From Sclerodactyla briareus (lineage: Eukaryota > Echinodermata > Holothuroidea > Dendrochirotida > Sclerodactylidae): a stretch of DNA of 64,000 nt. Positions within the stretch are counted from its first letter, which is position 1, and every line of letters starts with the position of its first letter. Shown piece by piece: positions 3,346 to 63,824 of the stretch. The notes beneath the pieces are model-generated. The model was not told the DNA's origin. It was given only the letters and a program-made list of their open reading frames with translations, and ran no database searches. Location of the stretch: the NCBI GenBank assembly GCA_026419785.1, contig JAODTK010005883.1:124001-188000 (forward strand), read 5' to 3'. Made by a program: the position numbers and the translations under genes.

Positions 3346-3594
3346 AAGCATCGAACTAAATGAAGCATCTTGAATGAGAATATTCTCTAGTAGGACCATA
3401 AAGGCCCACCTGACATCTTCCGCCTGGCAATGTTGCTGGCCATCCACCGATTCGAATTATCCGGGTTAAACGGGATCACACTCAAGGAAAGACATGGTGT
3501 ATACCTGTGTTTCCAAAGATGGTGGACGATATATTCCAGAATCCCGCATGGTATGGAAGTAATTAGGCGACTGAGCGATCTGGAATTGAGATAA
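3346..3594 (+). CDS. Death-domain-like exon (first of two), partial
   Basis: A plus-strand frame open from 3394 to the TAA at 3592-3594 translates to a segment resembling the second half of a death-fold domain. It has a DIFRLAMLLAIHRFEL helix-like stretch, then CFQRWW followed by a final helix containing EVIRRLSDLEL. Death domains typically carry a conserved Trp near helix 5 in just such a context. The segment is preceded by a good acceptor: a pyrimidine-rich run ending in TGTAG at 3341-3345. The 5' part of the exon (3346-3393) is not open in the same frame, so an indel is likely there. These domains mediate homotypic assembly in apoptosis and innate-immune signalling. The identification is by eye, and a death-effector-like fold is the main alternative. 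Confidence 0.45.
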
Positions 3595-3854
3595 GAGAGA
3601 CTTAGCGATCACTTTGTGTCAATGTGTGCTCGCTTGAGACAGATTCCGATGGAATTTCGTTTGTATCTGGAGTAGGTGATATAGGTCGCAGGTACTGAAC
3701 CTCGTAGGTTCTTGACGTGAACTATTCTTTTTACTAATCAAGAACTCTCAAGTCTTTGGTATACTGTTGGGAAGTCAGAGGTCAAATAATATGTCTGATC
3801 AAATTGCACTCAACAATTCCTGCCACAGCTGCTGTTTAACTCTATCTTTCGCAG

Positions 3855-4106
3855 AACATCTCACAAAAGATTACTAGAAATGGATGTTCATTGGCAGATA
3901 TTTGGGCCTAACGGAGGAAGATCTGGAAACGATTTCCAGCAAGTATGAGGGGACTAAAGGCGTCGAAGAGGCCAGTTTCCAAATGTTGCTCCAATGGAGA
4001 AGAAAGCCAGTAGCAAAGCATATGTTAAAATCCTGGCGAATGCGTTGACCAAGTCGGGATATACGAATGTTAAAGAGAAAAAAACACATTGCTACAGTTA
4101 CGGCTG
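3855..4106 (+). CDS. Death-domain exon (second of two), probable 3' end of a gene
   Basis: A 3' splice site (pyrimidine-rich, TTTCGCAG ending at 3854) opens onto a clear death-domain pattern. A helix ending NGCSLA (frame from 3855) is followed, after a one-base frame change near 3893, by RYLGLTEEDLETISSKYEG, then VEEASFQMLLQW. After a second frame change near 4005 comes VKILANALTKSGYTNVKEK, the usual last helix, and a stop at 4104-4106. The order and spacing of LA..LGL.EED...I, LL.W and L..AL...G are characteristic. It is likely the C-terminal domain of a receptor or adaptor (UNC5-, PIDD- or MyD88-like proteins carry it there). It lies 260 bases after a first death-like exon on the same strand. 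The two frame breaks make it either a pseudogene or an assembly-damaged exon. Confidence 0.6.
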
Positions 4107-4159
4107 ACGGCGAATAGTGAATTAGCGATCGTATCAATGTTATTTTCCGTGGGTTTCTT

Positions 4160-4535
4160 GAAACTAGACATACTATGGGAAAGAGAAGAGCCCTGGTCAT
4201 GAAAATGGAGTACTACAAGAAAACCAGAGAAATACACAGACGGACGAGGAAGTCGACAGTGAGAGCCAGCGGAAAATGGACGATTGTCCAGAAACGAAGG
4301 CTGGGGCGGTATGGCCATGTTTCAGGGACGACAGGATCCACACTCCAAGAAACCGTGGAAAGTTCACGAAGGTTAGGAGACATCATAAATGAGTGAAGTG
4401 GATTGACCATTGAAGGATCCAGGATAGCGATGGAAGGTAGATCTAGTTTGGTGAAAGATTGCCTGTCAAGTCTTCGATAGCGCCCCAAATGACCTCTATG
4501 GTCATTGGATGAGACAATGATCAGACATACCGTGG
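4160..4535 (+). mobile_element. LINE ORF2 3'-terminal relic
   Basis: The plus-strand translation carries the end motif of a non-LTR retrotransposon ORF2. KRRLGRYGHV (about 4291-4320) is a version of the R.L.W.GHV motif after the reverse transcriptase. It is followed by LQETVESSRR, an NEWSGLT segment (about 4387-4407, with a stop codon in place of the Trp) and SAPNDLYGHWMRQ with a stop at about 4520. Those closing motifs recur in LINEs of cnidarian and echinoderm genomes. At least one frame change and one in-frame stop show it is dead. It sits about 55 bases downstream of the death-domain stop codon, so it may have inserted in that gene's 3' UTR. Confidence 0.55.
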
Positions 4536-7239
4536 ACTATTTTACTGCTCGTCGAGTTCGCATTCATTAACTAGATTCTGTATTTTGATTCAATTTCCAA
4601 TCTAGTTCCACCCATGATTGTATATCAGCAACAACACAATTTGACGCTTAATTCATCTCTATTCATTACGTATATTAGGGTAAGCTGACTAGGTCCCATA
4701 CGGTTAACCAACCGTGACCCAGATGGAAGAACACAGATATGTGACGTATGTCACAACATAAACTAATAAAATTCGTTGCCCGTAAACAATCGTACAAAAG
4801 TACTACAAAAGCAGTGTTACATTGATTGATTACAACATATTGAAGAGGTTAGCGAGAGCAGCAGATGTAACAGTTGTATATTGTTGCATCGTCATTCACC
4901 AATGAAAGCCACTCATCGGAGAATGTCTAATTATAGCTAATAACCACCAAACTGGATGTTTCAACCTACAATGTATCACCATTTAAGGCTAGAATCAACG
5001 TTCTACAAATTATAACCCCTATGAAGAGGGGAATTCATCGACTTAAACCAGCCACTAGGACCGAAACTACGACACTCGAGCTTCAGTGTAAAACATTAGT
5101 GATGGGTGTTTTTGTTTTGCTCGAAATGACTGTATTCGGTGAAATTGACTCTCCGGTATTGGTATTAACGGGATGTTTTATATTCCTTTACTGACACATT
5201 CCTTACCAACAGAATCCTGGAACTAACCAGTAGCGTTAATGAAACGATATCGCTGGTCATGTTTAACCCATAGAGGTGATAAATGCGTGGCATATACGTT
5301 GCTAAGGCGGGTGGCTCCGCATGTGGATCGAGTTCACAATAAAAACCTCAGGAATATGCTTTATAGTGCTGCCCCACTCCCTGGTTCATTAATTTCATCA
5401 CGTCCGAGTATCACATATGTATGGCTAAGAAACTCCTGGTGGGGCTGTTGACTGAGACTCCCTGAACATTCAATTGTGCCATTGTGTATTGTTGTTGCCT
5501 AAAATAATATGATATGGGTAATATTCGCTTTGTTTCATTCACAATTGATCAATATGTGCACACAGTTTATGGTGAATAATTTTTTCATATTTTACTATGG
5601 TCTGGGTTTGTTACGAATATCCACTAGAAATATGCTGGAAATGCCGAATAATCCCTTCCACGAAGCGAGGGCAGCCAATTCCTTGTGGTTTCATGACTTC
5701 GGAAAACTGGCTAACTCATTCCCGAATCGGCCAAATCGTTGTCCGTTCTGCGTGTGACCACACTCTCCAATGTTGAACTACGAACACTGCGAAACACTAG
5801 GTTTATTGCCTAGTGGGTGATTGAACTTCTTCATATAATGTCCAGTGTTTAGGGGATAATGACATTATTTTCGCTTCGTTTCACTCACAATTGTTCAATA
5901 TATGCCCACTCTTGAACATTTGGTGTGTGGATCTTTTTTAACTTTTCTTCGTTCATTTTTTAGGTTCTCCTATTTTTAATCGTTCCTTCCCATAACTTTC
6001 CTTTACCCTTGTATATATTTCTTTTTAGCCTTTAGATATTCTCAAATTAGATCACTGATCGTATGCATGAGAACGATTACAATGTGACAAAGACAACAAG
6101 GTCCGTGAGATAATAGAGATGTCCCAATATACTTTTTTCCAATTATCAATATTGGAAAATGGAGGTTCAAGTGCAAAGGTCTCCTGAATTATGTTTGACC
6201 TCCTCAAATTAGTGAAGACAAAACCAATTGGTAACCGAATTTTTTGAAGATCACTTAATATCTGTTTCAGAATTCCAGTAAACAATATGCGCATAGCTAG
6301 TAGACATGTTTAATATGAAGCACAATTTTTTCGCCAAATTTCTCGTTTTTCTTGCTATACCCGTATAAAAAAAAAATGATATCACATTACTTATGAATGC
6401 AAATGAATTGCCATCTATAGTATTCACATTAAAGTCCCCAAGATGAAGTAGTCCCACATCTCATTGCTAACCGCACACAGTGTACATGCTATTGAACCGT
6501 TTGAAAACATAGATACACTGCTTGGGATGGGTTTACGTTTCAAACGTTGCCGCCTACGCGCTATGCTATCGTTAAAAAAATATGCGCTAATCGACTCATG
6601 AACGTATCGACACTTGATCGTTTACCTATACTCTCAAACTGAAGGTCAGGGAATCAAAGTTCGTTTCACAAGATCTCGTAGGAATTTAAATTGTGAGTAC
6701 ATTGCCTCTTTCAATTCAATGCCGTCATGCTCCACAGTGTAGGCCTATACATATGACAACTGCATTCAGTACGCTTTTCCCTGCCGCGGGCATGATATTC
6801 CTCTAATAATCTTTGCCACATTCCTAAAGAAGTGTTCGTCTCTTTGATAGCCTTCTGATGTGACGTTCACCTCTTTTTCATCACCTTATTTGTATAGTAT
6901 CTATACCATGGTGAATCGTTGGCTTAAAATATGTCGTATAGAAACAATGAAGAAAATTGCATGAAATAATTATTCCTCTGTGTTTATTTTGGTTGTGTGT
7001 TTGTGTTCATTCTATTACTTAGACAACTTGGTTGTATACATATGTTATATGCTATGATTTTAAATATACATGATACGTATATTGCCGAGCGGACTATCAC
7101 AAACCCTTCCAGTATTGGTTGTGGTGTGAATAATAAATTATACATACAACATCACTTAGTGGCAACATTCTGTGATAACATCCCGATTCTCGTCCTCACA
7201 CACTGAGGCCTACAGTTTCGAATTGGACCAAACATATTA
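4536..7239. other. No recognisable gene; weak direct repeat only
   Basis: Only short non-conserved open frames are present. A roughly 45-base segment centred on TTTCGCTT.GTTTCA.TCACAATTG.TCAATAT occurs at about 5525-5560 and again at about 5870-5905, a diverged direct repeat about 350 bases apart. Nothing else stands out. Confidence 0.5.
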
Positions 7240-7440
7240 CCGTCTGGTTGGCTTGGTAGTGCCTTTTACCATGGAGTTCAGGAGTCGAATCTCTGTCGGT
7301 TTGGGGCTCGGACGAACGGGGGTAGCACCCCCCATTAAATACTTGGCCAAGAGCCATTGTCCCGTGTACCGGTGGAAAAAAGAATTTCGCAGCTGATGCG
7401 AAACGTGCAGTATTCAAGTCTGCACCTACCGGGCGTGAAT
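7240..7440 (+). mobile_element. Possible tRNA-derived SINE fragment
   Basis: The segment TTGGCTTGGTAGTG (about 7248-7262), followed about 30 bases later by GGAGTCGAATCTC (7281-7293), resembles the A and B boxes of a tRNA-like SINE head. No poly-A tail or target duplication was found, and the boxes match poorly, so this is a tentative call. Confidence 0.25.
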
Positions 7441-8174
7441 GGTTAGAATATCAACACGGCAAGTATATCATAATAAAAATAAAAACGACCAAGGGACATA
7501 AGCCTACGACCGCCTTATCCACCAATCCCTGGTTTTTAGTTCAATGAAACTGGGGTGAAACATATCTGTTGATGTTAGATCAAATAAACTTATTCACACG
7601 TCTAACCAGTTACATACTCGAAACACTGGTTGCAAGGCTCACTCGCTACAGACAGCGTTTTCAGTGGGTCTTGTCTAATAATTTTCTGACTATAGACCCC
7701 CTGTATGGGGGAATAGGCGAATAAACAAATTCCACAATGACTCGCTTTGTCGACTAAGTTGTTATACTTAACATGACAAAAGGCGCGCTCTTAAGGATGG
7801 GACACACGTCTCCGTTTTTAGCGACAAACCCTGTGAAATGGTGGAAACATCCTGGGATGACTTGAAGGCTATATTTTCTTCTTTTAAATACAACAATTTA
7901 AAGTACACGGCGTGCATATATGAAGATAATGGCTTCTCGAAGGGGGGGGGAGTGCATTTTCCGTTTCATTACCAAGTGATTGTTGATGGGAGCTATGGTA
8001 TCCGTGAAATTGACCACTTTTGAGCCATGCTATATCAAAATATTCATCGTCTGGGTACACTAGCAGGGTATTTATCGCGTCTATCTTTCGGGGTTATTTT
8101 ACTAAAACAATCGTGTACACATCGCGCCAACTTATGATGGGGCTCGCCTGGTTATTGCAATTTACTATTTAAGT

Positions 8175-8620
8175 GAGGCGATCAGCTTCAGTCGGTAAAG
8201 CTGCAGCTGCGAAACCACTGATTGCGACATCCAGAGTCATTGGAAGCCGGTTCCTTTTCGTAGTGGTGTTGGACAAGGCATTATCGAAATTGGCACGCCA
8301 ACCACGTGGTAAAAGTGGGACTTGTGATGTGACTTGATTGTGAAAAGTAGCGAGCGCAGTATGGGCAGCTCTATTCGGAAGACCTACAGGCGGACACGGA
8401 TGACCTGACGTACTGAAATGGGCGTCGGGGGGGAGGGAAGAGAACAAGCAGAGGTGCGTGGCGTTGAGTTACGGGTGACAACACTCATAGATCAGAGGTG
8501 CGTGATGTGGTACGGGTGGTGACAAGACACTCTAATGATCAGAGGTCATATCTTTGATGAAGCGCTTCGAGCATGTCCTCAACATGGAAAGCGCTTTATA
8601 AGAACGAGATGAGCCTATCA
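8175..8620 (+). mobile_element. SINE-like element with conserved tail
   Basis: A tRNA-like head with CAGTCGGTAAAGC near 8190 is followed by a GGACAAGGCATTATC block near 8270, both familiar from invertebrate and vertebrate SINEs. The element ends with AAGCGCTTCGAGC, then GGAAAGCGCTTTATAAG (8585-8602), a tail type seen at the 3' end of many retroposons. Between body and tail lies a short tandem duplication of about 52 bases (about 8450-8545: AGAGGTGCGTG, ACGGGTG, GACA, ACTC, TAATGATC). The overlapping minus-strand 92-residue open frame is not believed to be a gene. Confidence 0.5.
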
Positions 8621-11600
8621 TTAATAATATTAGTGGGCCCAACACACACATCGGATAAATCTACCCTGGCTCCGGTGGACGAAACTCAAATACTATAAGG
8701 CAAAGTATTTTTCAAAAGTTGAGGATCAATAGAAGTATAGCAGTTTCTGGAGGTGAGTAAACGAGCTATGGCATTGAAGGCCACGTATGAACGTTTGAAC
8801 AATTCGTTACAACACTCACTCCGTGCGGCTCCAGAAACCGGGTCGTTTTCGTTATGGACCCATGCTAGAGAAACCGAGCCAATTTCAAAACGAAGGAGGG
8901 GGGGGGGGTGTTTTCTTCCTATACCAGAGGCGTACTGTACCGTAATTGTGTTCCTGTCGAAGGTTCGATAATAGCTTTACAGTAACATTCGCCTAAGTCG
9001 GTTGTTTAGGTACATCTTCTTGAACTGTCCAAACAGGGGTTGGTTCGGTCGCGGAACACCTTCTCCCTTCGTAGGACCTCGATGGTTTCCCTATACAATT
9101 CCCCCAGTGCATGATACCCCGCATCACCTTCTGATGAGTGATTATAAGTCTGTTCGCGTTTGGCGTTCAAATGTACATGCTGTTTGTTATGAAATACACT
9201 CCGAATAACACGTGCACTTTACGGACATATTCGTATATCTTTACTAAGTCACCTCAAGCATGCTCGCGATCATTAGTACAGTTACGAGCGATTTTAGCTT
9301 GAAGATAAGAACGAATTCTTCTTAAGTCGCCTAATTAAATAGAAATGAAATAGAAGTGACGATTGTAAAATTTAGGGACGCTCTGAAATTACGACCACAT
9401 GCTTCCGTAAGGCGGAGATAAGAATGTTTCTTATATTTTGTGAAATAGGGCTGGTCTTCCAAACGTCTGGTTACAGCTTGCGAGGGATGAAATAATTTTG
9501 CGTTCAGTCCCTGTCAATCCTTTACTGATGTTTCAACTCTGTTGAACGTTGTTATAGCGGTTTGAACCCATCAAATTAAGGGCTGGATATGTAAGATACA
9601 GATTATATGGCTCAGAAGAAATAAATGGCTTAGTATACTCAACCAGTGTCAGAAGAATGTGGATTTATGCTCATTTGTCAATATGTGTGTACTGCGCCGA
9701 TGAAAAGCAACCTAAACCACAACTTGAACTTAGGTCAAAGGCTGGATGCTAGTACAAATCTATGCGAAATAACACAACCCTGGGCATCCCCTGACACTCT
9801 CCAAAAGCGCTTTCATCAATCAGTCAACCCCAATAAACAAGGCATTTGTTAAGTGATTGGTGGGTCGATTTAAGTCTTTCCAGGGGTGAAGTTCATTGAA
9901 GAGGGCAAGGTAGAACTTACTGGTTGGTACAGGGTAATGAACATCCTTGTTTCTTCTGGGAGAGCGCCGACAATCTATAATTGAAGAGGGTGGACAATGG
10001 GTGTCCGAGGCATTAAACGTCAAGGCAGAAGGATTTTGTCCATGCGCGTCATGTACATCTCAATAGTGAGCTTCTTCCGATAAGCACCAGCCACACTGGA
10101 GTGTCGGTGATCGGATTCCAAACCTTCCGATTCTCCCGAGCAATTACAAGTTCCAAAGTGGCAGAGTACCCAGGTTGCCACATACCAAATGCGACTACCA
10201 TTCGACGTCGCTTGGAGAAGTGTCTTGTCCTCTGTATTTTTCACGATAAGCTCTGGGCACTTCGATCGTGAGGAAAAATGAGGTTCATGTTAACAGCGAA
10301 ACTCTAAAAGAGTTTAAACGTGAACCGAGGAGCTTCTATCAATCATGGACCACAACATTAAACCCAGCTTTCAAAGGTTGGCGTGATTCAGTTCCAGTTG
10401 ATATTTTGCGACTGAAGATCCAGAAACTAGAGGGGCTACTTTCGGGTCGTTTTTTCAATCGCAATCTCTACAACAACAATCTCTCCGCACCGCCTATTGA
10501 GGTAGTTCAATTTTCAATTGCGTCACGGATTGACGGAAAAACCCAGTTCTATGCAGAGCAAGGGTAGAAATGTTAATGAATTTGAAATTGGGTGGAAAAG
10601 GGTTCATTTTCCTTGAAAAAATCCAAATAGATGGTCGCATTTACTTCTATAGTTCTGGTAACTGGTTAAGTCCTTGTCAAAGAGTTGCGCTCGGCAGCAA
10701 GGCGCTGATTGCAAATAAAATTCAGCTCCGGCTTGCAACAAGTTTAACTGAAAGAATCAAATAACAAGTTTTTGTAGGTATCGGTAGAATCTCCTGGTAC
10801 GTTTCACCTGGCAGGGAAAAAATCGAAATGTAAGACTGGAGTTGTTATTCAAGTATCATATTAGTGGAACTGGATTCCGGAGAAATTCCAATTGAATAGT
10901 CGCAACTCGTAATTGACAAAAGGGACTTGGCAGTGTAGGCTATCATAAGTAGCCAAGGTGCCATGGTCCATGAGAAGTAGGGTTCTCCATCAATACCTTT
11001 CCAACTGTATATTGGTCAGAATTGAATATTACTGTGTATTATTCATATCAGTTACTATAGGTAACCCATTATTATTATTTGTGGAGTAACATGAACCATT
11101 CGCTAGTAAACTAAGGGTATTCCTATTTATTGAACACGTACATGATCTGTAGATGTTATGGATGATGTGACCACAGAAAAGGAGTGAAACCTGATTAAAT
11201 ATTGGTAATGTAATTGCAGTACCAAGAGAAGATGCGTGGGAAGAGTGTGGCAGTCATTATGTTAAATAGAGTTGGTGGCGGAACTATACGCACAGCCAAC
11301 CCTGCGCTACTGAACAATTGAAGAGATGTTTTTGGTTCAATGTCTTCATAATGGCCAACTGTATATATACCCGTAGACTGTTCTTGTATATATTGGATAG
11401 CAGTGGTTTTAGACCACGGGACCAAAATGGTAATAGTATAGTACACAGAATAATAACACAGCACGACATTTCAAAGTTAGCATTTATGTTTTCAACAGTG
11501 TATGTCACGGCATCCTGCTGTGGCCTTATGACTATCTAATCCCCAAAAATTCCATCAAGAGGTCTGTCAATGGTTTCGTAACCTACTGAATGCAATTAAT

Positions 11601-12384
11601 AGCAGGAAGAAAGTCTACCAAAATCTGGACTATGGGAAGTGATTCAAACAACAAAGTCAAAATGACCCGCAGCAAGCCATATTAAAATGAGAAATGCAAT
11701 GCAATTGGCCAGACGTTGCACTGGAGTGGCGATTGAAGTGTTAGTTCCAACTAATTATGCTAGGGTGACTAATGGATTGAGTCGGCATAGTTTGGTATTA
11801 TCTCACCACCAAACAAGCACTACCGCGGCCTTCGGCCATCTTGAAATTATGAAGTATAGTTATTCCAAAAACCTTGTATGCATAATATTTACCGGCTGTG
11901 AGTCTGTGATAAAAATTAAGATTGAGTAAATTCAAGTGAGGTAAATGGCCTTCAAATTTGTATTCACAGGACCTATCCATTGATTTGTTTATTTGATTTA
12001 TTTGAATGCTACGGGGTCAATAAGTCTTATTAGGGCTCATAGAGGGGGATCCTGGCCGCGTGAACGTGGGTGAAACCGGCGAAACTTCGCCTTCTCTCTT
12101 CGACTAGGCCGAAGGTTATGAGGCAGGCGTGTACGCAACCCCACCTTGAACAAAATCCATGTTCCAGGTGGAACTTTCCAGGGATTTGAATAAGTGTATA
12201 TGAACTTGATTGTCATTCATGATAATAAACATTTTTCGAGTTACAACCTCATGTTTTCGGGTTTTAATGTCACGCTGGTGTATTGCGTTCCATTTAAAAT
12301 GCATGGCAGTGTCCATAGTCGATCCGTTGGCGGGTTTTGTTTATAGTTGTGTTCCTTGATAATTTTGTCCCAGCTCGATGGCGC
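8621..12384. other. No recognisable gene
   Basis: Several open frames of 60-99 codons occur, including adjacent plus-strand ones at 10268-10567 and 10570-10764 with no recognisable family motif. Their spacing and composition do not separate them from chance. There is a poly-G run at about 8899-8908. I see no convincing promoter, exon boundary or repeat. Confidence 0.45.
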
Positions 12385-13200
12385 GTTGCTATAGTACCGG
12401 TAAAGAAGTCCAAGCCAACACACGAGGATCTCCATACCACGTTGTCCCCGATGTCGAAAACCTGTACCCGAGACGATCGTGGGTGAGGTCTGCCTGACTG
12501 GGAGGAGACACGTTTAAGAAGAGCCTGAAAAGACTCCGGAGATCCATGAGCTGCGTTCTGACCCTACAAACCGTGCTCCACAGCCACACGAGTACCGTCG
12601 CCGGGTGGGCCCTCCGGCTCCCACGACGCCATGGTGAAGGGAGAGACTTCCCGAGTGAAGGGGGAAGAATTTCTGTCCTGCTGTCGTCCCCGGCATTAAT
12701 ACCGGAAACATGGCGGCGATGCAGGCGACAGGGTATGGCCCATACATGAGGACCCGTTTGCCCGATCAGACCTGCATATCTGGGTCGGTATGAAGCCGTC
12801 AGGAGCGAGGTTTTGCTAGAGGCCCCGAATCTGGGTTGGAAACCCAGAGAGGTTCCGCCAGTACCCGCATGTTTACGGTTCAGATTTCTATGACGCTCAG
12901 ACCCAGGAGTGCGGTGAGCAGACTACTCCAATGCGCCACCCTCACATTTTTTGGGTTCAACACGCACCGGGTCGGCCTCCTCCGGCCCTCGAGCTTTTGA
13001 AGGTTTTCCTCCCTCACCGCGTAGCCTCCCCCAGAATTGCGTCCAGTCCCCCCCTAGGCCACCAGGGAGATGCTCAAGTGGCGCTTACCTCCCGAGCAAG
13101 GCTCTGCCCCGATACAACCGCCGTCGTTCCCGCCTGGAGGAGAGCAAGCATGGGCAGGAAAGCAATCAAAGTTATATCCTGGCAACTCCTTTCTATGGCT
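12385..13200 (+). mobile_element. GC-rich decayed segment, possibly 5'/gag part of the DIRS-like element
   Basis: This block is much more GC-rich than its flanks and matches the composition of the DIRS relic at 14.8-15.6 kb. A plus-strand frame from about 12704 reads DPFARSDLHIWVGMKPSGA, then a stop, then continues open through RFRQYPHVYGSDFYDAQTQE to about 13266. Such extended near-open frames suggest former protein-coding sequence. I cannot name the domain. Linking it to the DIRS element rests on composition, strand and position only. Several stops and frame changes are present. Confidence 0.3.
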
Positions 13201-13581
13201 TTTAGAAATTCACATGGCCATAAGCCATTACCAAAAACCAAGTCGTACACAAGCACAGACCTGTGATGGCGGCCAAAGCCCTGATATGAAAGAACTGCCT
13301 ATTCTGACTAAAATACAGAATAACATATTCAATCTAAGAAAACGAGATGAAATAAGTTAAGAGGGGCTTTGTGAAATATGATGCATCATGATGGGTGAAG
13401 GAAAGGAAGAGATATTCGAATCTGATGTATGGAACATACATTATATAATATAAATTTGGATGGGATTTGGGGTTCAAAAGCTGATGGTATGAATAACTTT
13501 TCAGCCGATTTGATCTCTTTGGAAATCTCGAATCCCTATCATACAACAGTCAAATCAAATCTTGATATAAAAACACATCCA

Positions 13582-14720
13582 TGCTATAGACCATGTTATA
13601 TAAGGCTTTATTTGTCCAATAAAATTTTATACCGATATCTGGGTAGGATCCAATCACGTTTGATCAGGGCTTTATATGGCCAATATAAAACACTATACCT
13701 ATATCTGGGCCGCCTCTATAATCAACTTATTGGGTGCTCTATGGCCATATAAAAATTTATCCCTATATCTGGCAGCCTCGATATCAAGTTATATAAGGCT
13801 TTATATGGCCATATAGAACTTTATACCTATATCTGGCAGCCTCTATATCAAGTTATATAGGGCCTTATATGGCCATATGACACTGTATACCTATATCTGA
13901 GCAGCCTCTATATCAACTTATATAAGGCTTTATATGGCCATATAGAACTTTATACCTATATCTGGCAGCCTCTATATCAAGTTATATAGGGCCCCCATAT
14001 GGCCATATATAATTGTATATCTTGGTAGGCTCCATATCAAGTTGGATCGGGCTTTATATGGCCATATCAAACTGTAAACCTATATCTGAGCAGCCTCTAT
14101 ATCAACTTATATAAGGCTTTATATGGCCATATAAAAAGGTATACATGTATCTGTTCAGCCTCTATATCAACTTATATAAGGCTTTATATGGCCATATAGA
14201 ACTTTATACCTATATCTGGCAGCCTCTATATCAAGTTATATAGGGCCTTATATGGCCATATGACACTGTATACCTATATCTGGCAGCCTCTATATCAACT
14301 TATATAAGGCTTTATATGGCCATATAGAACTTTATACCTATATCTGGCAGCCTCTATATCAACTTATATAAGGCTTCATATGGCCATACAGAATTGCGTA
14401 CCTATATCTGGGTAGGCTCCATATCAAGCATAATAGGGCTTTATATGGCCATATAAAAATGTATACCTATATCTGGCAGCCTCTATATCAACTTATATAA
14501 GGCTTCATGTGGTCATATGAAAATATATATCCATATCTGGGCCGCCTCTATATCAACTTATATAAGGCTTTATATGGCCATATAAAAATGTATACCTATA
14601 TCTGGCACCTCTATATCAAGTTATATATGACTTTATATGGCCATTTACAATTGTATACCTATATCTGGGTAGGCTCTATATCAACTTATATAAGGCTTTA
14701 TATGGCCATATCCATTCTTT
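13582..14720. repeat. ~64-bp satellite array, about 17-18 units
   Basis: The unit has four recognisable parts: TATATCAACTTATATAAGG, CTTTATATGGCCATATA, GAACTTTATACCTATATC and TGGCAGCCTC. The palindromic core TATATGGCCATATA recurs at about 13672, 13801, 13866, 13930, 14053, 14118, 14182, 14249, 14313, 14442, 14569, 14633 and 14697, an average spacing of 64 bases; other copies are mutated. Units differ by small substitutions and CTGGC/CTGAGC/CTGGGTAG variants, so higher-order structure is possible. Two units (13863-13872 and 14246-14255) contain a perfect CC(A/T)6GG box. The array is flanked on both sides by GC-rich retroelement-like sequence. Confidence 0.95.
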
Positions 14721-14867
14721 ATTTAACCAGATCTATCCAGTCATAATGCCATACATGGCATTTCAGTGAGGGCTCACTGTGCCCAATATCGCTTCTTTTC
14801 TATGACCAGTTTGTACAAGTGTCCGTTCGGGTCACACGTGAACGTCACGCCAACGTCATAACCCATG

Positions 14868-15189: not shown

Positions 15190-15209
15190 CGCCTATCGCC
15201 CATAGGGAT

Positions 15210-15560: not shown

Positions 15561-15564
15561 GTGG

Positions 15565-40030: not shown

Positions 40031-40036
40031 GGAGAG

Positions 40037-51905: not shown

Positions 51906-51962
51906 GTTCACTATTTCTCCTTGAAACAACAGTGTTCAAAAATACTATGCACCTCCCAGCAA

Positions 51963-51999
51963 CCCCCCCCCCCTCTCCCCCCCCCCCCCCCACCCCCCC
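51963..51999. repeat. Long poly-C tract
   Basis: Thirty-seven bases that are C except for two Ts and one A, one of more than a dozen C/G runs in the window. Confidence 0.95.
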
Positions 52000-52059
52000 A
52001 CGACAAGGAGGGGTACGGGAATTTTCTCATAAGTCAATATTTGGCAATCTGGCTGTAGA

Positions 52060-52570: not shown

Positions 52571-54609
52571 GGGAACCCTATTGGTTGGTGGGAAAAATTG
52601 GACATTTGCCAGACAGATGTTGTCCATAATGAGCTGGTACAATCTCCCATTTGCCACTTTGTCTGGCCATAGCGTTGTCAGAAAGAGTCAAGGAATCATT
52701 GACCTTTTGGCTTTCTGATTCCCATCGCCTCAAATAAGGGAAAATACCAAGAGTGTTGTCACGCCTACTGTAAAAATTTTTTTACGATATTATAGTGATG
52801 TTTTCATATTTCAGGGAATTTCCATCCTACTTGACATTTCTCCATTTTATTTCCCGGATTTCAAACGTAAGGTTTTTCGAACTTTGAAGGCGTTACTGGA
52901 ATGTGATGAAGTGACTTGCAGTAGTATTAATACGTACATATATTACAAGGGTAAACCAACCCCCGTCCGCAACGTGTTGTGTACCCGAACAGTCAATTTC
53001 CTAGCGGTGAAGAATCTGAAACAAACGGCGCCACCGATATATGACTCTCGACAGCCTTTGAACCCATTCAGAGAGTTCATAACACAACCGCATGCATGTG
53101 TCCAAGACACACCCACGTTCTTCCCTATCTTACCTATTTTTGCTCAAGGTTCCGTTCTCCACCAAGTTATAATCAGCAAATTTACTTATTCAAGTTCAAT
53201 GCTCTTCAAAACTTTGTATTGTGAAACGCTTTGGTCAGCAGTGGGGAGAGAGCGCTATATAAAGTATAGAAGGAGACAGTATAGTTAATTTTATTTTACT
53301 CCGTAGCCCGTGTGTACTTTGCACCCATTAGACTGAAACCGTGGAAGGGCAATCTATTACTAGTCTATATCTACGGTGATCATCGTTTGTTGGGGTTATG
53401 CACTATACCTACTACTGCTACGAGTCAGACACACTAGTGTGAGCAGCACTACTATCGTTTTCTATCAGGGCGCAACAATGGAGAGAAATGTAAGTACCAG
53501 TTGGAATATGACGTTCTTGTCGGAACTCTCAGACTCTCGAGAGTCGCGGCAAGACATGGAAACAATCTGAGAGAAAATATTTCAGGCCAGTGTGAAATAC
53601 GAACATCAGACATGGCAGGCTCGTGTGGAGGGAGAAGTGAAAATTACAGTCTGGGGCGTTGGGCTATCAATTTCATTAGCGTGTTGATGCAATATACATT
53701 AATAAATCTTGGATATTCACCAAGTGTTAGGCTGGGATTCCATAGATTGCGTATGCGTATGTGAAAAATCGCCAAGTTACGTAAACTGGCGGGGGGAGGG
53801 GTCGTGTTTGAAGATATTTAGTTAGTTTTGGAAAGATAGCATACGGGTTCCACAGAAGCCAACAAATCATAAAATGAAGGCAAACCACGTTGGAATAGGC
53901 GAAGAAGCACATGTACCAATGCTTATGCAGATGCGTATCATCGCGAATTATTCTAGGAATATCTTCCTTTAAAAGCTAGCAACGACGATAGGTATGGGCG
54001 AAGGTTGATGCCTTTTATTGCTAAACCTTTTCATCGCTGGTCGAGAGATGGGAGCTAAGCCTGCTGGTTGAAGAGTAACCAAATTGACGATGTAGGACTG
54101 TCGGGTATTCCGCCAGACATATGGCATGGTAGCGGAGTGACACAGGGAGTGGTGACTCCTGAAAGATTATGGTTTTCTTGTGTGTGTTTACTGTATAATT
54201 GGCAGTGTCAGTTGAAAGCGGTCCAGCCAGACCGTTTAATGAGTCAAGTACTTGGAAGTATTTATTTTTAGGACAGTATTCAATTTCGAATATAAACGAA
54301 AACCGTGACAGTATTACTATTGACCACACGTGTTGTCGTTTCTACTCGTCGGCCCCCTTATGGAATTGTCTCCTCTGCTCTGGTCATCAACGACCGACGG
54401 CCTCATGCAGCTAACTCCCTGAAGCGTTATTAGGATTGTGCAGACAATATGAAGAAAAAAGACGGGGGGGCCTGTTTGTCCGTATGAAAGTTTGTAACTC
54501 AAGTGGGTTGTTAAAGTAAAGTTTTCTGTACCCTCTTATTATTAATTAACATTCTTTAGTAACGATGTTTCCAAGCCTCCGTAGATTGCAGTGATGTGCG
54601 AAAGTTGTC
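52571..54609. other. No supported gene; retroposon-like tail at 53220
   Basis: TGTGAAACGCTTTGG, then GAGAGAGCGCTATATAAAG (53220-53263), is the same kind of AGCGCT..GCGCTATATAA tail as in the SINE-like element at 8.6 kb. The 134-codon frame 52884-53288 overlaps it, so it is probably not a gene. ATGGAGAGAAAT|GTAAGT at 53478-53495 is a start codon followed by a consensus donor; it could be a tiny first coding exon but has no partner. Confidence 0.35.
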
Positions 54610-54830
54610 GATAGTATGTCGCCAAACGTAGCTCAGTGGTTACGATTAGACGGTGAAAACATTCGCTTCCGTACTCTGTCAAGGTTTACAGCAATAGTCC
54701 CACGAGGGATAAATCTGTGCACGAGTGCTGTTTATCTGCCAGAAGTTGAAATTGAGTGTGTTGAGATGAATTTGACACGGTGTTAAATCATTTGTATCAT
54801 TTAATTTATGCTTTGCAAAGTCTTCGCTTC
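54610..54830 (+). mobile_element. tRNA-derived SINE
   Basis: CGTAGCTCAGTGGTTACGA (about 54628-54646) is a strong match to the tRNA A-box (TRGCNNAGTGG). About 45 bases later, GGTTTACAGCAATAGTCCCACGAGGG (54684-54709) occupies the B-box position but is decayed. A tRNA-unrelated body with GTTGAGATGAATTTGACACGGTG follows. No poly-A tail or target duplication was identified, and the B-box decay makes transcription unlikely. Confidence 0.55.
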
Positions 54831-55497
54831 AAGGGACCGATTAACACTAGGTTGCCATGGGTTACTATGTTTATCATGTATTGCTGTGAGGTCATTAATG
54901 TTTGTATGTTAGGCACGACATGTGTTGTGGGTTAGAGAAAAGTCCATGCAATGTGTGTTGATCGAGTTGAAGCTGGCTAAATGCTAGAATGAGAAGTGAA
55001 CTAAGATTCAGCAACAGTCTTGACATCTTTGTTTTGTCAGTACGGGTGTGGTAGTTGGTGTGCCCATATATATTGGTCTATTTCGTGGAATTACGTGATT
55101 AGAGGAAATTCGTGCAGGGTTTCATTAGAATGCTTTGATTGGAAGAGTGTTGTTACATTGGGGATAGTAGGTAGTCATGTTAGTGTGGCCATGTTCAGGG
55201 CAAATTTTAGATAGTGGAGATATATGCTCCAGTGTTCAGATGTGTGACTGTCTATTACTGGATGGTAATTGGTTATTTCCGCTTCTAAAAAAATGGATGG
55301 ACGGGTTAGCAGTTCATTTGTAATGCAGTCAAGTCAATGTTTGTCAGTGCATGATGTTACCAAAGTCATATTCATGGTATTATTTTGGGTGTTATTCGTG
55401 TATGAGCGCACCGATTTAGAGGTCAGTCACATCTTCCTTTTTTAAACAGTTGCATTCCCATTGGAACTTTGGATGTGTTCTTTCTTTTTTGTTACAG
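54831..55497. other. No recognisable gene
   Basis: If the exon that follows is real, this is intron sequence; nothing else is seen. Confidence 0.4.
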
Positions 55498-55665
55498 ATT
55501 GAATGTGAAAATAAAGAAGACGGTCTTCAGTTCAACTCGGTTGACCGTCATCATACAATAACAGGTATACAGACTGTAGCCGGTCTTCTTTTCAGTGCGT
55601 CACAAGTTTCAAAACAATCTCAAGTTTCAAAACAATTTCTACGCGTTGCAAGTGCTCAGAAGTAG
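55498..55665 (+). CDS. Candidate 3' exon behind a strong splice acceptor, unknown product
   Basis: An excellent acceptor (TGTTCTTTCTTTTTTGTTACAG ending at 55497) opens on a frame IECENKEDGLQFNS that continues to a TAG at 55663-55665. Inside it an 18-base unit CAAGTTTCAAAACAATCT is duplicated (55607-55642), giving a tandem QVSKQS/QVSKQF. An alternative donor is AACAG|GTATAC near 55561-55570, which would end the exon earlier. I recognise no domain, so support is the splice site plus the open frame only. Confidence 0.3.
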   Translation: MECENKEDGLQFNSVDRHHTITGIQTVAGLLFSASQVSKQSQVSKQFLRVASAQK

Positions 55666-58600
55666 GGAGTCTTAAAACAGACGCTCGACGTTTTCAATGT
55701 AGTCAATAAATCAAAATTCGAATGTGGCAAAATGGAAAGTCCATATAAGTTGAGATATTTAGCCGCATTACTGCTCTATGCCGTCTCTTAGTGTCATTCC
55801 CGTCCAATTACCTCAAATACTTAGCCAGTGATGGTAACAAAACGGCCAGGACTCCGGAGGAGAGAAGGGACCGTTTCTGATCAAGAAAACAGCGTGACAA
55901 ATTGAGAAGTTGCCGTTGAAACCTACTCAGACTTACAATACCTCTATAGTGCCTCATATGTCGCATTCCGAAATTTGCGCAGCATAGTTAGGTGAAAACA
56001 GTGTGTACCCATAGATGAATGTATCATGGTCATATAGTTCACTGACGTACTCATGTAGAGTAATCGAATCCTCAAATGACTAAATCAATGACTATCTGAG
56101 TAGTTTTGTACCACGGTACTGATAAAACAACATGCTTATTTCAATAAACCGCCGGCAGAACCTCCCATGACCCCAGTGATCAATAATTTTTCCAACACGA
56201 AAAACTGAATTTTTGCAGTCGTATAAGTTGTGGCAGCTGTTTATTTGCAAATATTGGCAGCAGCATGTGCCTGGGCCATAAATTGTACTTCTTGCCAGAG
56301 TTGTGAGGGGTGAGCCCATAAGAGTGGGCGCATTTGGGTCCCGTTGGGGATCGGCGAGGAGTCTCACCCCCCCCCGCCCCCCCCTCGTGGCCACCACCGC
56401 CCCCAATACATATCTCTCAGTACGCGCCTGGTTGCCGTGGTACGGGTCTATTTGTTGTTTGGTCACCGTACAACGCTAGTTTGTACCAACTCCATAATAC
56501 TAGATAATATCTTTAACATCCCCGATGAGATCACCATAATCTTTTTATCGTAGATCATACGCTGGCGCCCGATATGCTATATGGGAATTTACTTGTGTTA
56601 ATGGCTAATAGAGTTGGCGATTTTGTTGACAATACACCGACGCCGTTGTCCCTCTGATTGCCCTTGATGGATGTTATTGATTATACAATCAGATGGTATT
56701 CTTCGAAACCGCCCACAAATTTCTGAGTGCATATAGCAAATTCGGATAATCAATGCGCATTCCGATAACTGGTCACCGCCGTACAAAGTACAATAGAGGT
56801 GTTAATGGCAAATAGATGACCAACAAAATACCATAGGTGTGTTCTGTAATAATTTGAGATGTTTATTGAGCTTTACCAATGGCATAAAGGAAAATAATTG
56901 CTTTCGGTCGTACCCCGACGACGTATCTGACTGGCGAGGTGATAACCAGCTGCGATAACAATTGTATTGTAAATGTTGTGTAGAAAATGGCACATAAACG
57001 CATATATATCATTGAACTAATTCCGCCATGAGAGCCGAAATCGAATATCTGGAGCAATCGCGGCCCCACAGCGGCGCAAACTGTCTACGCTTCAGGCGCT
57101 CGGCAACCCCCACTTATTGCCTTTTCCGGATTGTAGCATTATTTGAATTAATATAATTTTTTTTTTAACCGTTCACATCATCATAAATTTTGAATTCCTG
57201 AATCATGCTCTTTGTTAGGCCTATCACTGTCCAAAATGAAAAAACCATTTCCCGACTGAACAAGCACTTTTTTTCTCGAACTCAAAATTCGAGAGCTCTA
57301 AAGTGATCGATTCGTGTTGGTCTGGGTCATATTTGGTTGAATTATCGTGTATCTGACTTGACATACATCTTTTTTATCTAGTTTCTATAACCTTCTATTC
57401 GCTTGTCACAGAGGTCCGGGCTGGTGGGATTCGTGTACCCTGGGCAGCCTTCTCTACTAGAATATGGTATGGACCGATGTGTGATGTGGGTGAGTTAAAC
57501 TAACATTTGCAGTGGCCCTAATAAGGATTACATGCTCGAATTTTAAAACTCCTACTTTCCCGACATATTTGGCGGAAAAACTGCTAGTGTGTCTATCCCC
57601 GTGTATCACCGTAGATTTTTGTGTTGGTAAAATACCCTGAAACTTGTGAAGTGATTTGTCTCCAGGTAAAAAAAAGTCCGGAAAACGTATTACTTAGATG
57701 ATCCATCTTGCAATTATCGGTTATCAGCAGATAACGAACATAACTGAGTCGCCGCCTCGTTGGCAATAAGGCGAACCTAAAGAAGAAATGCACTATCTCT
57801 CCAACAGGTAGCAAGTGTACCTCCTAAATTGGAGAATTCCTGATTGGTGAACACAATATGATAGCCAATTATGATGCTATCAACTGTAAATAACTATGTA
57901 TGATTATTCAACTCCTATTAATTGAAGCGGAGAACGGCTAAATAGGAATGGGTTCACATCATATTACACCCCTCCCACATGAAATACAATCACACTGCAC
58001 GAACTGTGAAACCCTGCAGAGTAAATACTAATCAATAGAACCTGCCTTGGTTTGCAGAACGAGCACACGGGTTTGATACATCCTTATCACATCACGATAT
58101 ATATTATTTGAGGTTGGAACCTTGATGTTGGATGTCCTTCTTGTCACCTTGACAGTCGCATCAGACTCATCATCGAAAATCAGGGTCACAGTTTCCATTA
58201 CCTCTCTCCTCATGTCACTACGTTTTCCTGAGAATTCCAGATTGCATGCTCACGCACATAGGACCTTGATGATTTTTTTTTTTTTTTTTTTTTGCCCAAT
58301 TTTGCCAGTGACCACTTGCTAGTGTCCTGATTCTGAACATAACATCCTCCCCTACGGAGACGGACCTGTTTTCCAATACGACAGTCGGCACATGACCGCT
58401 CATGAAACCGTTGACTCCCTAAATCTTGGACTAGAGGTCACATGATCACAGACCATCCTTCATTAACAATTGCTCGAAAGAGCATGACTTGTAATCTGAC
58501 CTGCCATTGCTATATCATTTCTCTGGATACCATGCTCTGAAATATGCGTTTAACTGTATAACACACCTACACTTGTCTATTGACCCGCGTGGTGGACCTA

Positions 58601-58990
58601 TCACCGAAACTTATTTCACTGTACGGACACGAAACATTTTGATAATGGAGAATCAAGCTATATATGAAGTTGCGTTCGCCCCCGGCTCTACAATATGGGT
58701 ATGTAATTCAGCCCACCTTACCCACCTGACCCAACGTCATACATTTCAATGCATGCATGAAAACGTTTGCACAAAATTGTGTACTCTTAGTTCCAATGGC
58801 AGTATCTTCGATCTATAGGTAATAACAGTTGAGAAATTTTTGAGAACATCAATAGGAAATACGGTGAATGTGAGAACGACTGAGAAACATTTGGGAAAAG
58901 TGGAATGGGAGCCATAGATGGATCGAGTAAGGCACTAGGGAAACAGGGAAAAACATGAAACCTGATCAGTAGCTATTTAACTTTCGTTTC
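55666..58990. other. No recognisable gene
   Basis: C-rich run near 56367-56384 and a poly-T run at 58273-58293. On the minus strand CCGTAGGGGAGGATGTTATG (58337-58357) resembles a polypurine tract followed by an LTR start TGTTATG, but no matching LTR was found. Other frames are unsupported. Confidence 0.4.
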
Positions 58991-59086
58991 TATGCCCGAA
59001 ATGGTGGTCCGTTGTTTATTGATTTAGATAGTTCCTTCACGGCACAGCATACATTTATGATGTACATGATGTTACCGAGGGCTCAT

Positions 59087-59420
59087 TCAGTTCACGTTCG
59101 AGACATTTCGGGAATTTGGATCTGGTGAGTACAGAAGCTCCAAGCATAGAGTATCGGGAATGACCTCGCTCACATGGTCACTGATCTGTTTCAGTAGTGT
59201 TCTCAATAGTTTTCTAGCCTGGTGTGGAGTTGCTTGCCGGATCATGTCCATATCGTAGATTAATTGGCTCGTCTCCGTCTTCCCCGCGTAGCCAGAAATA
59301 TCCAAACTGTGGTAGGCCAACCTCATCAGTCACTGGGGCCGTTTGGATGTCGCGAATCTTCAGATCACTTCGGATGGCCCATAAAAGGGAGTCGGTTAGC
59401 TCTTGTGATCTGACAATTTA
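59087..59420 (-). pseudogene. Candidate decayed coding segment, unknown family
   Basis: Two overlapping minus-strand frames have protein-like composition. One (from about 59418) reads ELTDSLLWAIRSDLKIRDIQ and then TDEVGLPQFGYLWLRGEDG. The other continues as LIYDMDMIRQATPHQARKLL and QISDHVSEVIPD to a stop at 59087. A one-base frame change would join them. I do not recognise the family; a transposon-encoded protein is possible. Confidence 0.25.
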
Positions 59421-60299
59421 ATGCGTGAGCCCATGTATGGGTTATACTGCAATATTTTCTCAGCGCTGTAGCGTTAGGCAATCTTGATTTAGTAATTGCT
59501 GAGCTGTCTTGTTGATCGCTAAACTATTCACGAACTATACTCATTGGTACAGGTATTATCCATTTTCCGATACTTCTATAAATTTTACCATTTTACCATT
59601 TTTGCACTTCTTGTGTGATTCCATTATGATTTAAAAAACCCGTGAAGCTATTTTGGATAAGGTGAATTGTTGCAGTCTTGTAAAATACATTTTATATAAA
59701 AATAAAGAAATAAAAATCCGGAGAAACAACGCCCTATTCATAGTCCATTTCAACGTGGGATACCTCTTGTATTTGAACAGAGAAGCCAGATTCGGCCCAA
59801 CCCTCTGAAAGAGTAGGAACCAAACTGCCAAGCAGAATAACATCATCGGAGCACGAACGTTCATCCAATGTCATGTGAAAACAGGGGAGGAAAATGTTTC
59901 CAAAACAGAATGGGTATTTAGGTGTGCTATATCGCACCAAATTGCATCTGAAGTGTCTGGAAATACAGCCCCCCCCCATCATCCTTTCATTGAATTGCCA
60001 ATTTTATTCACAAAATATTTGTACTTGAAAAAATGGGGCCAGGAAAAATGGCATATATAACCCGAAGTATATTTATTTATATGAAGCGAAGACGTAGTAA
60101 CAACGGTGATTCCCAAAATATACATTTGAGGAGAGAGAAAATAACCCCATGAAAATAACCTAATAATCGGATGAATGTCGTGTGTCTTTACACCAAGTGT
60201 TTTCGTCAATGCGTTGAGTTCCTTTTTTGGTTGTTGTAAGATGACCCACTGATTGCCCAACAAAGTGAAACACTAATGGCGGCCCCTTGTTCTGTTCAG
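59421..60299. other. No recognisable gene; probable intergenic or intron sequence
   Basis: Nothing supported before the ZU5-gene exon. Confidence 0.4.
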
Positions 60300-60369
60300 G
60301 TCGATGACCGCACCGATGTCACTAGAAGAACGTTGCAGCCAGAAGATCCGGGAGTGTCCATTGAACCCG
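60300..60369 (+). CDS. Exon of ZU5-type gene (linker upstream of ZU5)
   Basis: A 70-base exon bounded by a consensus acceptor (CCTTGTTCTGTTCAG, ending 60299) and a consensus donor (GTAAGA from 60370). It translates as VDDRTDVTRRTLQPEDPGVS then IEP, a hydrophilic linker, and leaves one base over. The next recognised exon at 62913 begins with two bases that complete the codon and continue in the ZU5 frame. This phase match is strong evidence that the two are spliced together. No domain is recognised in the exon itself. Upstream exons (transmembrane or ectodomain, if UNC5-like) were not found. Confidence 0.55.
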
Positions 60370-62286
60370 GTAAGATTATTGATGGTTAAACTAAGCAAGT
60401 TCTAGTACTATGCCATAACGAATATCTGGTCAGCCCCAAATTGACACAGGAATGCCGATGTAATGACAATGATGGTGGTAATTATAGTGATTATAACGAG
60501 GAAATAATAGTATTATAATTATTATAATAATAATATTTTGTTGCACCTTCAGAAGAAAAAAAACAGATAGTGTTGCTCTCGCGTCTGAATTGGAATTTAT
60601 GTTGCCTTTACAGTTCAGCAGAGCCGTACGTCCAAGCTTCGTACACTCTAATTCAGTATTGTACGTTCTCCCACCAAAAAATGGTAAGAGCGTTAGTAAA
60701 TTGCCCCTACACAGCATTCGTTTCTGCGAGAAGAAGGTGCAAAATGGCTGGGGGAATTTTGTTATCAAAAATGATTACCGCGCAAGTTCGTCACTCCTTA
60801 GGAATGGTTGAAAAACCGATGACGGTGAACGGCATGATGCTTGACTCGTCTAAATCTCTGAGTATAAATTTCTGCTTATCGATGGGTTCTTGCTCTTGCG
60901 TTTTGGGTATTTCACACAATGTTGTTCATGAACCTATGGACAATATCATGGTTCATACGTAGTAGGAACTAGCTTAGAATACTAGATCACAACGGCCGTT
61001 TAGACAATGACAGATGAAAAACTCGCTAAAACTACTGCGAGCTTGCCCCATACCTTTTGGCCATCTGCGAAGACTCAAATGTCTATATACTCGATCAACT
61101 TCCTAACTCTACTCACAACGAAGTACGTTTGCTGCTGTTATTCTGCAAGTAAAGTAGAGCACCGATGGTGCTGTGGATCAAACCATAAAAATCAATTATA
61201 TTGTTGCAAACTGATCGGCATAGGATATCTTTAATTTGCCCCCCCCCCCCTCCAAGAACTAGCGTATTAGCTCAGGGAGACATTTATCTACGGACGCTAC
61301 CTAATTCCTGAACATCAGTTTATACAATTGGTCACCGATGACGACGACTATCCTGATTAATCTGCCGTGTTGTTTTTTTTAAATTGTAAAGGGCCTTTGG
61401 GTAGAAAACACAAAGAATTTTGGTTTTGTAGCAATTATGTCCTGACAGCGACAATATTTGAAACACTGGGATCAATATTTGGTGCACGACGCAGACAAAC
61501 AGCTAGAGGAAAACACTGCATGAACGTATCACATTACCATGTAATCCAACGCACTGCCCAAGCCTAACATTTCTCTATAGTATCCTACTGAACCAAATCA
61601 ATTATTAATGAACAAGTGGTTGGGAAGAAACTTTTGATGCGGAGGAACATTTTTCTGTGACAGCAAAATGTTTGGACTACCCCTACTAGTCCCATAACAC
61701 GTTAAATATATTAAATGTGGTACAGTTTAAGACACGTTAATCATCTGTCATATTCACACAGCAATGGTATGTTCTGACCGCAACAATATGCGGAAAACAC
61801 TGGGATCAATGTTGGGTGCGCTACACAGACAAACACTAGTGGAGAGCACCAGAATAAACGAATCACATAATCTTGGAGTTCAAATTTGTCATTTACTATT
61901 GATTTCATCTACATCAATTGATGATTGTTCAATGTGCAGGCTGTCCCGTCCGGACAGCAACTGCTCCTTTTAACCGATTACTACCTTTGTAAACATCTTC
62001 ACCACAGCATCTAGGGGAATCCACGCAGGTACATTGGCGCTGCCTTAAAGGAGAGAAGTATAACGTAAGCGTGAACGTCTACACCTTTTTTTAGTTTATT
62101 TCACTTTTGGACTTCCAATGATCCGTGGTGAAAACCAATTGAATATTATCTTTTGATAGGAACAAGCATTGCCTAAGAAACATTCTGATGCAACTCATCC
62201 TTCTTTTTTACATTTTTATGGAAGAGCATGTTTCGAAAGTTTATAATATTGTCTCGAAGTGACTATCTATCGATAGATGATCGATC

Positions 62287-62334
<48 letters not shown>

Positions 62335-62912
62335 CTAGCTAGATAGATAGGTAGATAGGAATACTACCATCGGTCAGTCAGGACTTGTTGTTGCCAAAAG
62401 CCTGTACCTTAACTTGTAAATAAGTGTTCAACAAGCCCGTCAGGGAAAGGTTATATCGACGGTGACTCTTTGCAGCACGCAAGTGATTCAATTGATGGCG
62501 ATGATCCTGGTGTCGGTTTCTTGCTTTTGTTCCATTATAACTATTAACGTTTGCCAATAATTTGCTGCGCATATAATGATTCATTTTTGATGAATATATC
62601 ATATTATTGATTTCCATTTGGAATTCTTTTCACTTCTATAATCTACAAATTCTCAAAACAGGCCTACAATGAGTGAGATTGGTGGCATATTTATTCGGGG
62701 CTAAGCATCAACTGATTCATGCCCAAATCCCGGCATGCCGAGGAGCTCGGGCTTGATGTAAGCCAATGGTAAGTGAGAATGTTAAGCATGTTTGTCGCCT
62801 GCCACTGACGATCTCACTAGGAATGTAGAATGTTCCATACTGAACTGCTAGAAAAAAAAAAAAAACAATAATGTCCATACTATCGACTAAAACGTCTCTC
62901 TTTCATCGACAG
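60370..62912. other. Probable intron with local direct repeat and GATA microsatellite
   Basis: Between the two exons, ACACTGGGATCAAT.TT.GGTGC with CAGACAAACA and AACG.ATCACAT occurs at about 61440-61560 and again at 61770-61885, a direct duplication about 330 bases apart. A GATA run of about 17 units lies at 62287-62360. A C run lies near 61241. The 130-codon frame at 60570-60962 lies wholly inside this interval and matches nothing. Confidence 0.5.
62287..62360. repeat. (GATA)n microsatellite
   Basis: About 17 tetranucleotide units with a few interruptions (GCTA, GGTA) at the 3' end. It is preceded by an imperfect palindrome around CTATCTATCGATAGATGATC. Confidence 0.95.
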
Positions 62913-63240
62913 CCGCCCGCAACACCAACTTTCAGACGCAGGCCGATATCAGCAACGAGGGAGGAACTTTAGAGATTCCAAACACTGGTATCAAGTTGGA
63001 ATCCCGGAAAATGCAGTAGCTGGAAAGTTCACTTTCAAAATGAAACTGATCGATCCACGTTTGGCGGATTTACATCTAAGTCATTCTCTAGCAATTCAAC
63101 GGCAACGGTGGAACTCCTTGCAGCAGGTTTCCGAAGTTTCTCCGACCAGCCGAACTTATCCTCCCACACTGCCTGTACCTCAAGACGGGATTTGAGGAGG
63201 GGGCCAACAACGTTACAGTCTACTAAAGGCCATCAGACGT
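62913..63240 (+). CDS. ZU5-domain exon, frame-broken
   Basis: A good acceptor (TCTCTCTTTCATCGACAG, ending 62912) is followed by ADISNEGGTLEIPNTGIKL (frame 1). Then, after one-base frame changes near 62998, 63082, 63150 and 63222, come GIPENAVAGKFTFKMKLIDP, SNSTATVELLAAGF and ELILPHCLYLKTGFEEGANN, then VTVY and KGHQT. The G.LEIP.TG...IP..A..G shape and the LILPHC block are hallmarks of the ZU5 domain of UNC5, ankyrin and PIDD-type proteins, which packs against UPA and, in UNC5, restrains the death domain. Conservation is high on both sides of each break. The 3' end is approximate; a GT donor near 63235-63241 is possible. Confidence 0.7.
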
Positions 63241-63607
63241 TGGTTGGTATCCCATAAGAAAAAAACAATAGTAGATAACTATTTGTTTTCCCCTTTCTTC
63301 TCTCTATATTCATCCTATTGATCACCGATCTTCCATCCACCACCTCCCCTCCTCCTTTCATCTACTCACACAGCCTACATGCCTGTTTCACTATCCACGG
63401 GTATCGTATATTAAGTGTGTTCCTAGATTCGGATTAGACCCTTGGTTGATTCATGATGTAGCCCCACTAAATGGAGTTTGAATGAACCGTGAGGCACTTA
63501 CTTATTTAGTTTGCTGATTATCAAATCTTAATAACAACCTGTCCTGTAGTCACCTGAAGTAATTAAATTGTGGAACGTTTGCCATTAAATTGTTTTTGCT
63601 TCGGTAG
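63241..63607. other. Probable intron
   Basis: C/T-rich and AT-rich sequence between the ZU5 exon and the acceptor at 63607. Nothing else seen. Confidence 0.4.
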
Positions 63608-63824
63608 GAACACACCACTTTAAGAGAGGCTAGTGACATCAAGTATACGCTCTCCGAATCCGGATGTCTTTAATTCCTTTGGGGTTTCTCTTGGAAGACT
63701 ACATGTCACGATAAAAACTCGAGCCAGACATCAACCTGATGCATCCAAACGCTCTCCAGACTTCGCAACCCCTCTGTTGATTGACGTTGTATACTACCCA
63801 GGAGCCCCAGGTGCGGTATCACAG
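63608..63824 (+). CDS. Probable UPA-region exon of the same gene
   Basis: An acceptor (TTTTTGCTTCGGTAG ending 63607) precedes a frame reading EHTTLREASDIKYTLSESGC. After a frame change near 63668 comes a second stretch, NSFGVSLGRLHVTIKTRA, and then TPLLIDVVYYPGAPGAVSQ, ending at a consensus donor ACAG|GTGGGT (63825). The beta-strand-like alternation and position right after ZU5 fit a UPA domain. I infer this from context rather than a firm motif. The donor shows the gene continues beyond the window, where a death domain would be expected. Confidence 0.5.

Follow-up and report, generated by a model that had tools for sequence, protein, structure and literature searches.

The frame breaks that interrupt the ZU5 and death-domain exons of this window are most likely an artefact of a known kind and not a real feature of the DNA. 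With a probability of about 0.9, we attribute them to indel errors that were left uncorrected in an assembly of long reads. The window is the whole stretch that was analysed, 64,000 nucleotides corresponding to bases 124001-188000 of contig C3126 (271,044 bases), and the assembly that holds it has 319,486,128 bases in 3171 contigs. Its UNC5-like and actin genes contain introns, from which we take it to be an animal assembly. For these exons the first-pass annotation had already judged uncorrected indels of long reads more likely than an old pseudogene, and this preference is supported by control genes of the same assembly, which show breaks of the same kind.

On this explanation a long-read consensus would have been left uncorrected, or would have been corrected unevenly, giving rise to the frame breaks. 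The slips would be of one and two bases, would run in both directions and would be scattered over coding and non-coding DNA alike. The neighbouring residues and splice sites would be kept because the real DNA of the animal would not contain the slips. The ZU5 and death-domain exons would belong to a small and partly tandem gene family, in which such errors would occur as they do elsewhere in the assembly.

The ZU5 and death-domain exons

A death-domain exon lies at one end of the window and a ZU5 exon with the exon that follows it at the other, all on the + strand. We refer to the ZU5 gene of the window as gene B, to a paralogous exon pair upstream as gene A, and to a third copy as C. The first ZU5 exon of gene B occupies 62913-63246, with limits taken from AG and GT, and its second exon, which follows the ZU5 core, occupies 63608-63824. 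The ZU5 exons of gene A lie outside the window, upstream on the same contig, at L005:8918-9240 (C3126:112918-113240) and L006:555-732.

On the + strand of 62898-63901 none of the three frames gave a Pfam match by itself. With successive frame pieces joined by X, the ZU5 domain (PF00791) was matched with E = 1.6e-8 and 35.1 bits, against a cut-off of 21. The frames joined in this way were chosen by eye, and we therefore added an independent frameshift-tolerant alignment using the gene A peptide (from L005). This aligned with the first exon of gene B at 62933-63223 with a score of 244 and 62% identity, whereas the maximum score in 120 random 400-base windows was 36. The alignment requires three breaks within its length. 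Four had been counted previously; three are recovered, and the fourth (near 63222) falls at the end of the aligned part. At the level of DNA, the exon is 72% identical to L005:8932-9237 over 311 columns.

The second exon of gene B, aligned over 63617-63824, contains one break, in agreement with that annotated near 63668. Its long open piece matches no Pfam family. Genes A and B differ here by 21 indels and 44 substitutions over 208 aligned bases, and they have in common a frame change that agrees in both size and position (near 63665 in the window and near 600 in L006). Given four to five breaks in each gene, the chance of such a shared break is 0.20-0.30 if a distance of 7 bases is tolerated and 0.10-0.16 for a distance of 3. 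The shared frame change is either a coincidence, with a chance of 0.10-0.30 depending on counts and tolerance, or one real event common to both genes.

The death-domain exon (PF00531) lies at 3855-4080 on the + strand, and the two breaks claimed for it are both counted in the frameshift-tolerant alignment. In a single frame it gives E = 7e-4 and 20 bits, under the cut-off of 22.6; read through the breaks it gives E = 2.1e-5 and 25 bits, above that cut-off. Judged from its order, strand and distance, it is probably the end of the upstream gene A. When death domains belonging to genes B and C were sought in L006-L009 and L037, the best score was 37, which is like the random scores of ZU5 queries, and a genome search for the death exon returned only the window's own exon among the matches listed.

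The splice sites of these exons had been described as intact. We find AG and GT at the two ZU5 exons of gene A and at the two in the window, and for the death-domain exon an acceptor AG. In copy C, on contig C2886, the acceptor of the first exon and both splice sites of the second look present, and one or three breaks are needed depending on the query. The frame is broken in each of the three copies of this ZU5 type that we found. In the ZU5 and death-domain pieces zero stops occur at aligned codons. The stop counts of the aligner, here and in the control genes, omit stops in inserted codons, such as those in L039, L043 and copy C (the last in an inserted stretch with gene A as the query).

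These exons resemble UNC5 and its relatives in the Pfam ZU5 match of the read-through sequence, in a weak likeness to UNC5B in the PDB, and in having a death domain nearby. The read-through peptide matched UNC5B and ZO-1, both weakly (E about 0.01). In UNC5 and its relatives ZU5 and death domains occur together; the ZU5 and death-domain exons seen here may or may not belong to one transcript. The UNC5-like ZU5 exons of this genome (L001-L003) are of another type, with L001 24% identical to the read-through peptide. The family that is unlike them comprises C3126:112918-113240 (L005), 62913-63824 of the window, and a copy on C2886 near 137556 (L012). Copies A and B are about 74 kb apart on C3126, and the contig of copy C also bears the UNC5-like ZU5 exon L001. 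As a check we looked for another, nearly identical copy of the ZU5 region, and there was none among the three matches listed.

Essential genes of the same assembly

As controls we have taken essential genes from the same assembly. Genome searches gave at least 16 matches of 18 candidates for actin, at least 7 of 11 for tubulin, at least 4 of 7 for histone H3, at least 4 of 7 for the TCP1 chaperonin and at least 14 of 21 for HSP70; these counts are lower bounds, and unlisted intact copies may exist.

The last exon of actin (172 codons) is broken at all six loci compared, with 1, 4, 2, 13, 14 and 11 breaks. In the same order the identity of aligned codons is 100, 92, 90, 81, 78 and 76%, with the first locus itself serving as the reference, and stops number 0, 0, 0, 0, 0 and 1. 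Over a 133-residue stretch of that first locus, about eight residues, counted by eye, differ from those of Drosophila actin 5C. Among the other actin exons, two at the reference locus are unbroken, a further two have 0 and 1 breaks, a partial match has 1 and another exon has 2. All four histone H3 matches listed are broken, with 1, 7, 8 and 8 breaks at identities of 82, 63, 77 and 74% to a reference verified against the PDB, the first covering half of the protein only. One tubulin exon of 183 codons was compared at three loci, and has 0 (the reference locus), 3 and 6 breaks, so that two of the three are broken.

Stops are found in three of the four TCP1 chaperonin matches. Animals have about nine TCP1-type chaperonin genes, and most of them seem to go unrecognised in this assembly. 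Among the 14 HSP70 matches six contain stops and eight do not. Three HSP70 pieces that were aligned further have 3, 1 and 2 breaks, and the piece with two (L060) is free of stops by its match.

The lesions are not confined to the ZU5 gene of the window, being present in actin, histone H3, tubulin and chaperonin, and in the ZU5 paralogues A and C. Since these essential genes show the same kind of breaks and cannot all be pseudogenes, the explanation by assembly errors is supported. Because essential genes carry breaks of the same kind, the breaks are not evidence of a pseudogene. The error load removes them as such evidence; it does not follow that the ZU5 and death-domain genes are intact in the animal.

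In the whole assembly four histone and four chaperonin matches are listed, as lower bounds, and both numbers are below the expectation for an animal. The small numbers may come from broken frames or from collapsed repeats, the counts being lower bounds.

Selection, the kind of break and duplicated DNA

Constraint can be read from paralogous pairs in which one member carries breaks. Actin L031 has four breaks, and its comparison with L032 gives 58 silent and 13 replacement codon changes, with 9, 6 and 64 differences at the first, second and third codon positions. Tubulin L043 has three breaks, and differs from L042 by 65 silent and 18 replacement changes. Genes that appear from such codon comparisons to be constrained as these are should not be expected to carry four and three real frameshifts. 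The aligner itself introduced 0.0 false breaks in simulations with substitutions only, at 77% and at 68% identity.

We have examined 90 breaks in 17 alignments, comprising 15 control pieces together with genes A and B. One base is missing in 38, one is extra in 27, two are missing in 14 and two are extra in 11. A run of three or more identical bases adjoins 21 of the 90, compared with 31% of positions drawn at random from those stretches and their flanks, and no homopolymer bias is seen among these breaks. This lack of bias would favour CLR over nanopore sequencing. Both the sequencing technology and the absence of the breaks from accurate reads are what we infer.

Duplicated sequences reveal a similar pattern. 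In 13 filtered duplicate pairs, some of which are actin exons, we count 526 substitutions and 155 indels over 4609 bases, 117 of the indels being of a single base. An intronic tandem pair of 287 bases in gene A, 2% diverged, has six substitutions and six indels. The inverted pair L009:6348-6907 and 7487-8054 differs, across 532 aligned bases, by 44 substitutions and 45 indels, and 34 of these indels are single-base. Four further pairs are less extreme, with substitutions and indels numbering 33 and 12, 15 and 7, 26 and 6, and 38 and 9 (indel to substitution ratios of 0.23-0.47). Single-base indels are thus in excess relative to substitutions in non-coding DNA too, by comparison with the ratio expected of neutral sequence. 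Taken together, the selection on the broken genes, the kind of break and the duplicates are indicative of uncorrected long-read consensus errors.

Uneven load and alternative explanations

The observations that count against our explanation are an uneven load of breaks, the frame change shared in the second exon, the moderate constraint between genes A and B, and the eight of 14 HSP70 matches that are free of stops. Ten control alignments of at least 90% identity, of which three are unbroken by construction, contain 13 breaks in 3873 bases. Eight alignments of less than 90% identity contain 68 in 3577 bases, and all 18 contain 81 in 7450. Outside both groups are a middle exon of actin (L033; 82% identity, one break in 122 bases), three HSP70 pieces, and chaperonin pieces whose frames were inspected by eye. 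Compared with the controls of at least 90% identity, P is 0.022 if the ZU5 exon has four breaks and 0.089 if it has three, and for the two in the death-domain exon it is 0.18. Compared with all 18 controls the values for the ZU5 exon become 0.44 for four and 0.66 for three, and all the counts are ordinary at the pooled rate.

At the histone H3 loci, with 63-82% identity, and at the worst actin loci, where 76-81% of aligned codons are identical, more residues have changed than indels by themselves would account for, and this surplus indicates that there is also substitution error or real decay. In the three worst actin loci 69-74% of all residues are preserved. Simulated decay leaves 66% at an indel to substitution ratio of 0.2 and 80% at a ratio of 0.5; the actin values lie between these, so that those loci alone cannot separate error from decay. 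It is possible that the ZU5 and death-domain family includes a recent pseudogene beneath the error layer, and the breaks cannot decide this.

The ZU5 and death-domain exons might be true pseudogenes of a small family, with assembly errors merely added to real breaks. This would accord with all three ZU5 copies being out of frame, with the second-exon break common to A and B, and with four breaks being somewhat many beside the best-conserved controls. It would also accord with the moderate constraint between A and B, where 22 codon changes are silent and 36 are replacements. Yet the differences between A and B fall mostly at third positions, 39 of 97, compared with 17 and 22 of 98 at the other two positions, a moderate excess. 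The aligned codons are without stops, the splice sites are preserved in both A and B, and the same breaks are found in essential genes. We consider this alternative unlikely, and retain uncorrected consensus errors as the explanation.

Finally, the breaks could be real in the DNA, those of the essential genes included, with frames restored throughout the genome, either through programmed ribosomal frameshifting or through insertion and deletion of bases by RNA editing, as the breaks written in the strongly constrained actin L031 and tubulin L043 and the one common to two paralogues might suggest; but this is highly improbable, since the breaks run in both directions (52 with missing and 38 with extra bases) rather than in one direction at a recurrent motif, their contexts share no motif discernible by eye, a stop triplet is nearby in 17 of the 90, single-base indels are abundant between non-coding duplicates where there is no frame to restore, and other matches of the same gene families are open.

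Comparison with other assemblies

The commonest errors before polishing have been described as short indels that stem from the CLR contig consensus and cause frameshifts (PMC8081667), and residual indel errors have been described in long-read assemblies (PMC12007338). Poorly polished PacBio CLR and nanopore assemblies share with the present one short indels, frameshifted conserved genes and kept residues (PMC8081667, PMC12007338). The density here differs: well-conserved exons have 3.4 breaks per kb and the worst actin locus has about 27, far more than corresponds to the accuracy of Q30-35 given for the state before polishing in PMC8081667.

The data from this assembly should be treated with care, and a broken frame within it cannot serve to call a pseudogene or the loss of a gene. 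Profile searches also overlook real exons, as none of the three ZU5 exons of the family was among the matches listed in a search of the genome with the Pfam ZU5 profile. The tests used here, essential-gene controls and silent to replacement ratios beside the breaks, are free of reads and can be transferred to other assemblies.

Other sequences in the window

Gypsy and CR1-like reverse transcriptases interrupted by breaks had been reported, with no coordinates, and neither was found in the approximately 52 kb that we scanned. Ten segments of 5 kb (4501-9500, 9501-14500, 14701-19700, 19701-24700, 24701-29700, 30701-35700, 37701-42700, 42701-47700, 52001-57000 and 57001-62000) were searched in six frames against Pfam, giving no reverse transcriptase at E values up to 0.05 in eight and 0.1 in two, where scans of single frames might overlook a relic with many breaks. 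The regions 3300-4501 and 62898-63901 (2.2 kb) were covered by Pfam on the + strand only, and about 11.8 kb of the window lies outside the Pfam scans. Comparison of 47701-52000 with the PDB in one frame per strand gave no match, and a motif scan for reverse transcriptases found none. Stray matches to zf-CCCH_DUS3L, RasGEF, FKTN_N, Cadherin_C_2 and MotCF (E = 0.017-0.053) were under the cut-offs and were taken as chance. A search of Rfam gave no match at the gathering score.

The window contains a 64-base tandem repeat at 13596-14711, with 17.4 copies and 81% matches, for which a period of 129 is also read. A dispersed repeat with TGACCT-like words has several copies on contig C3126, located at 19124-19211, 40679-40888 and 40990-41199 in the window and at L004:5185-5314 and L007:2523-2726.
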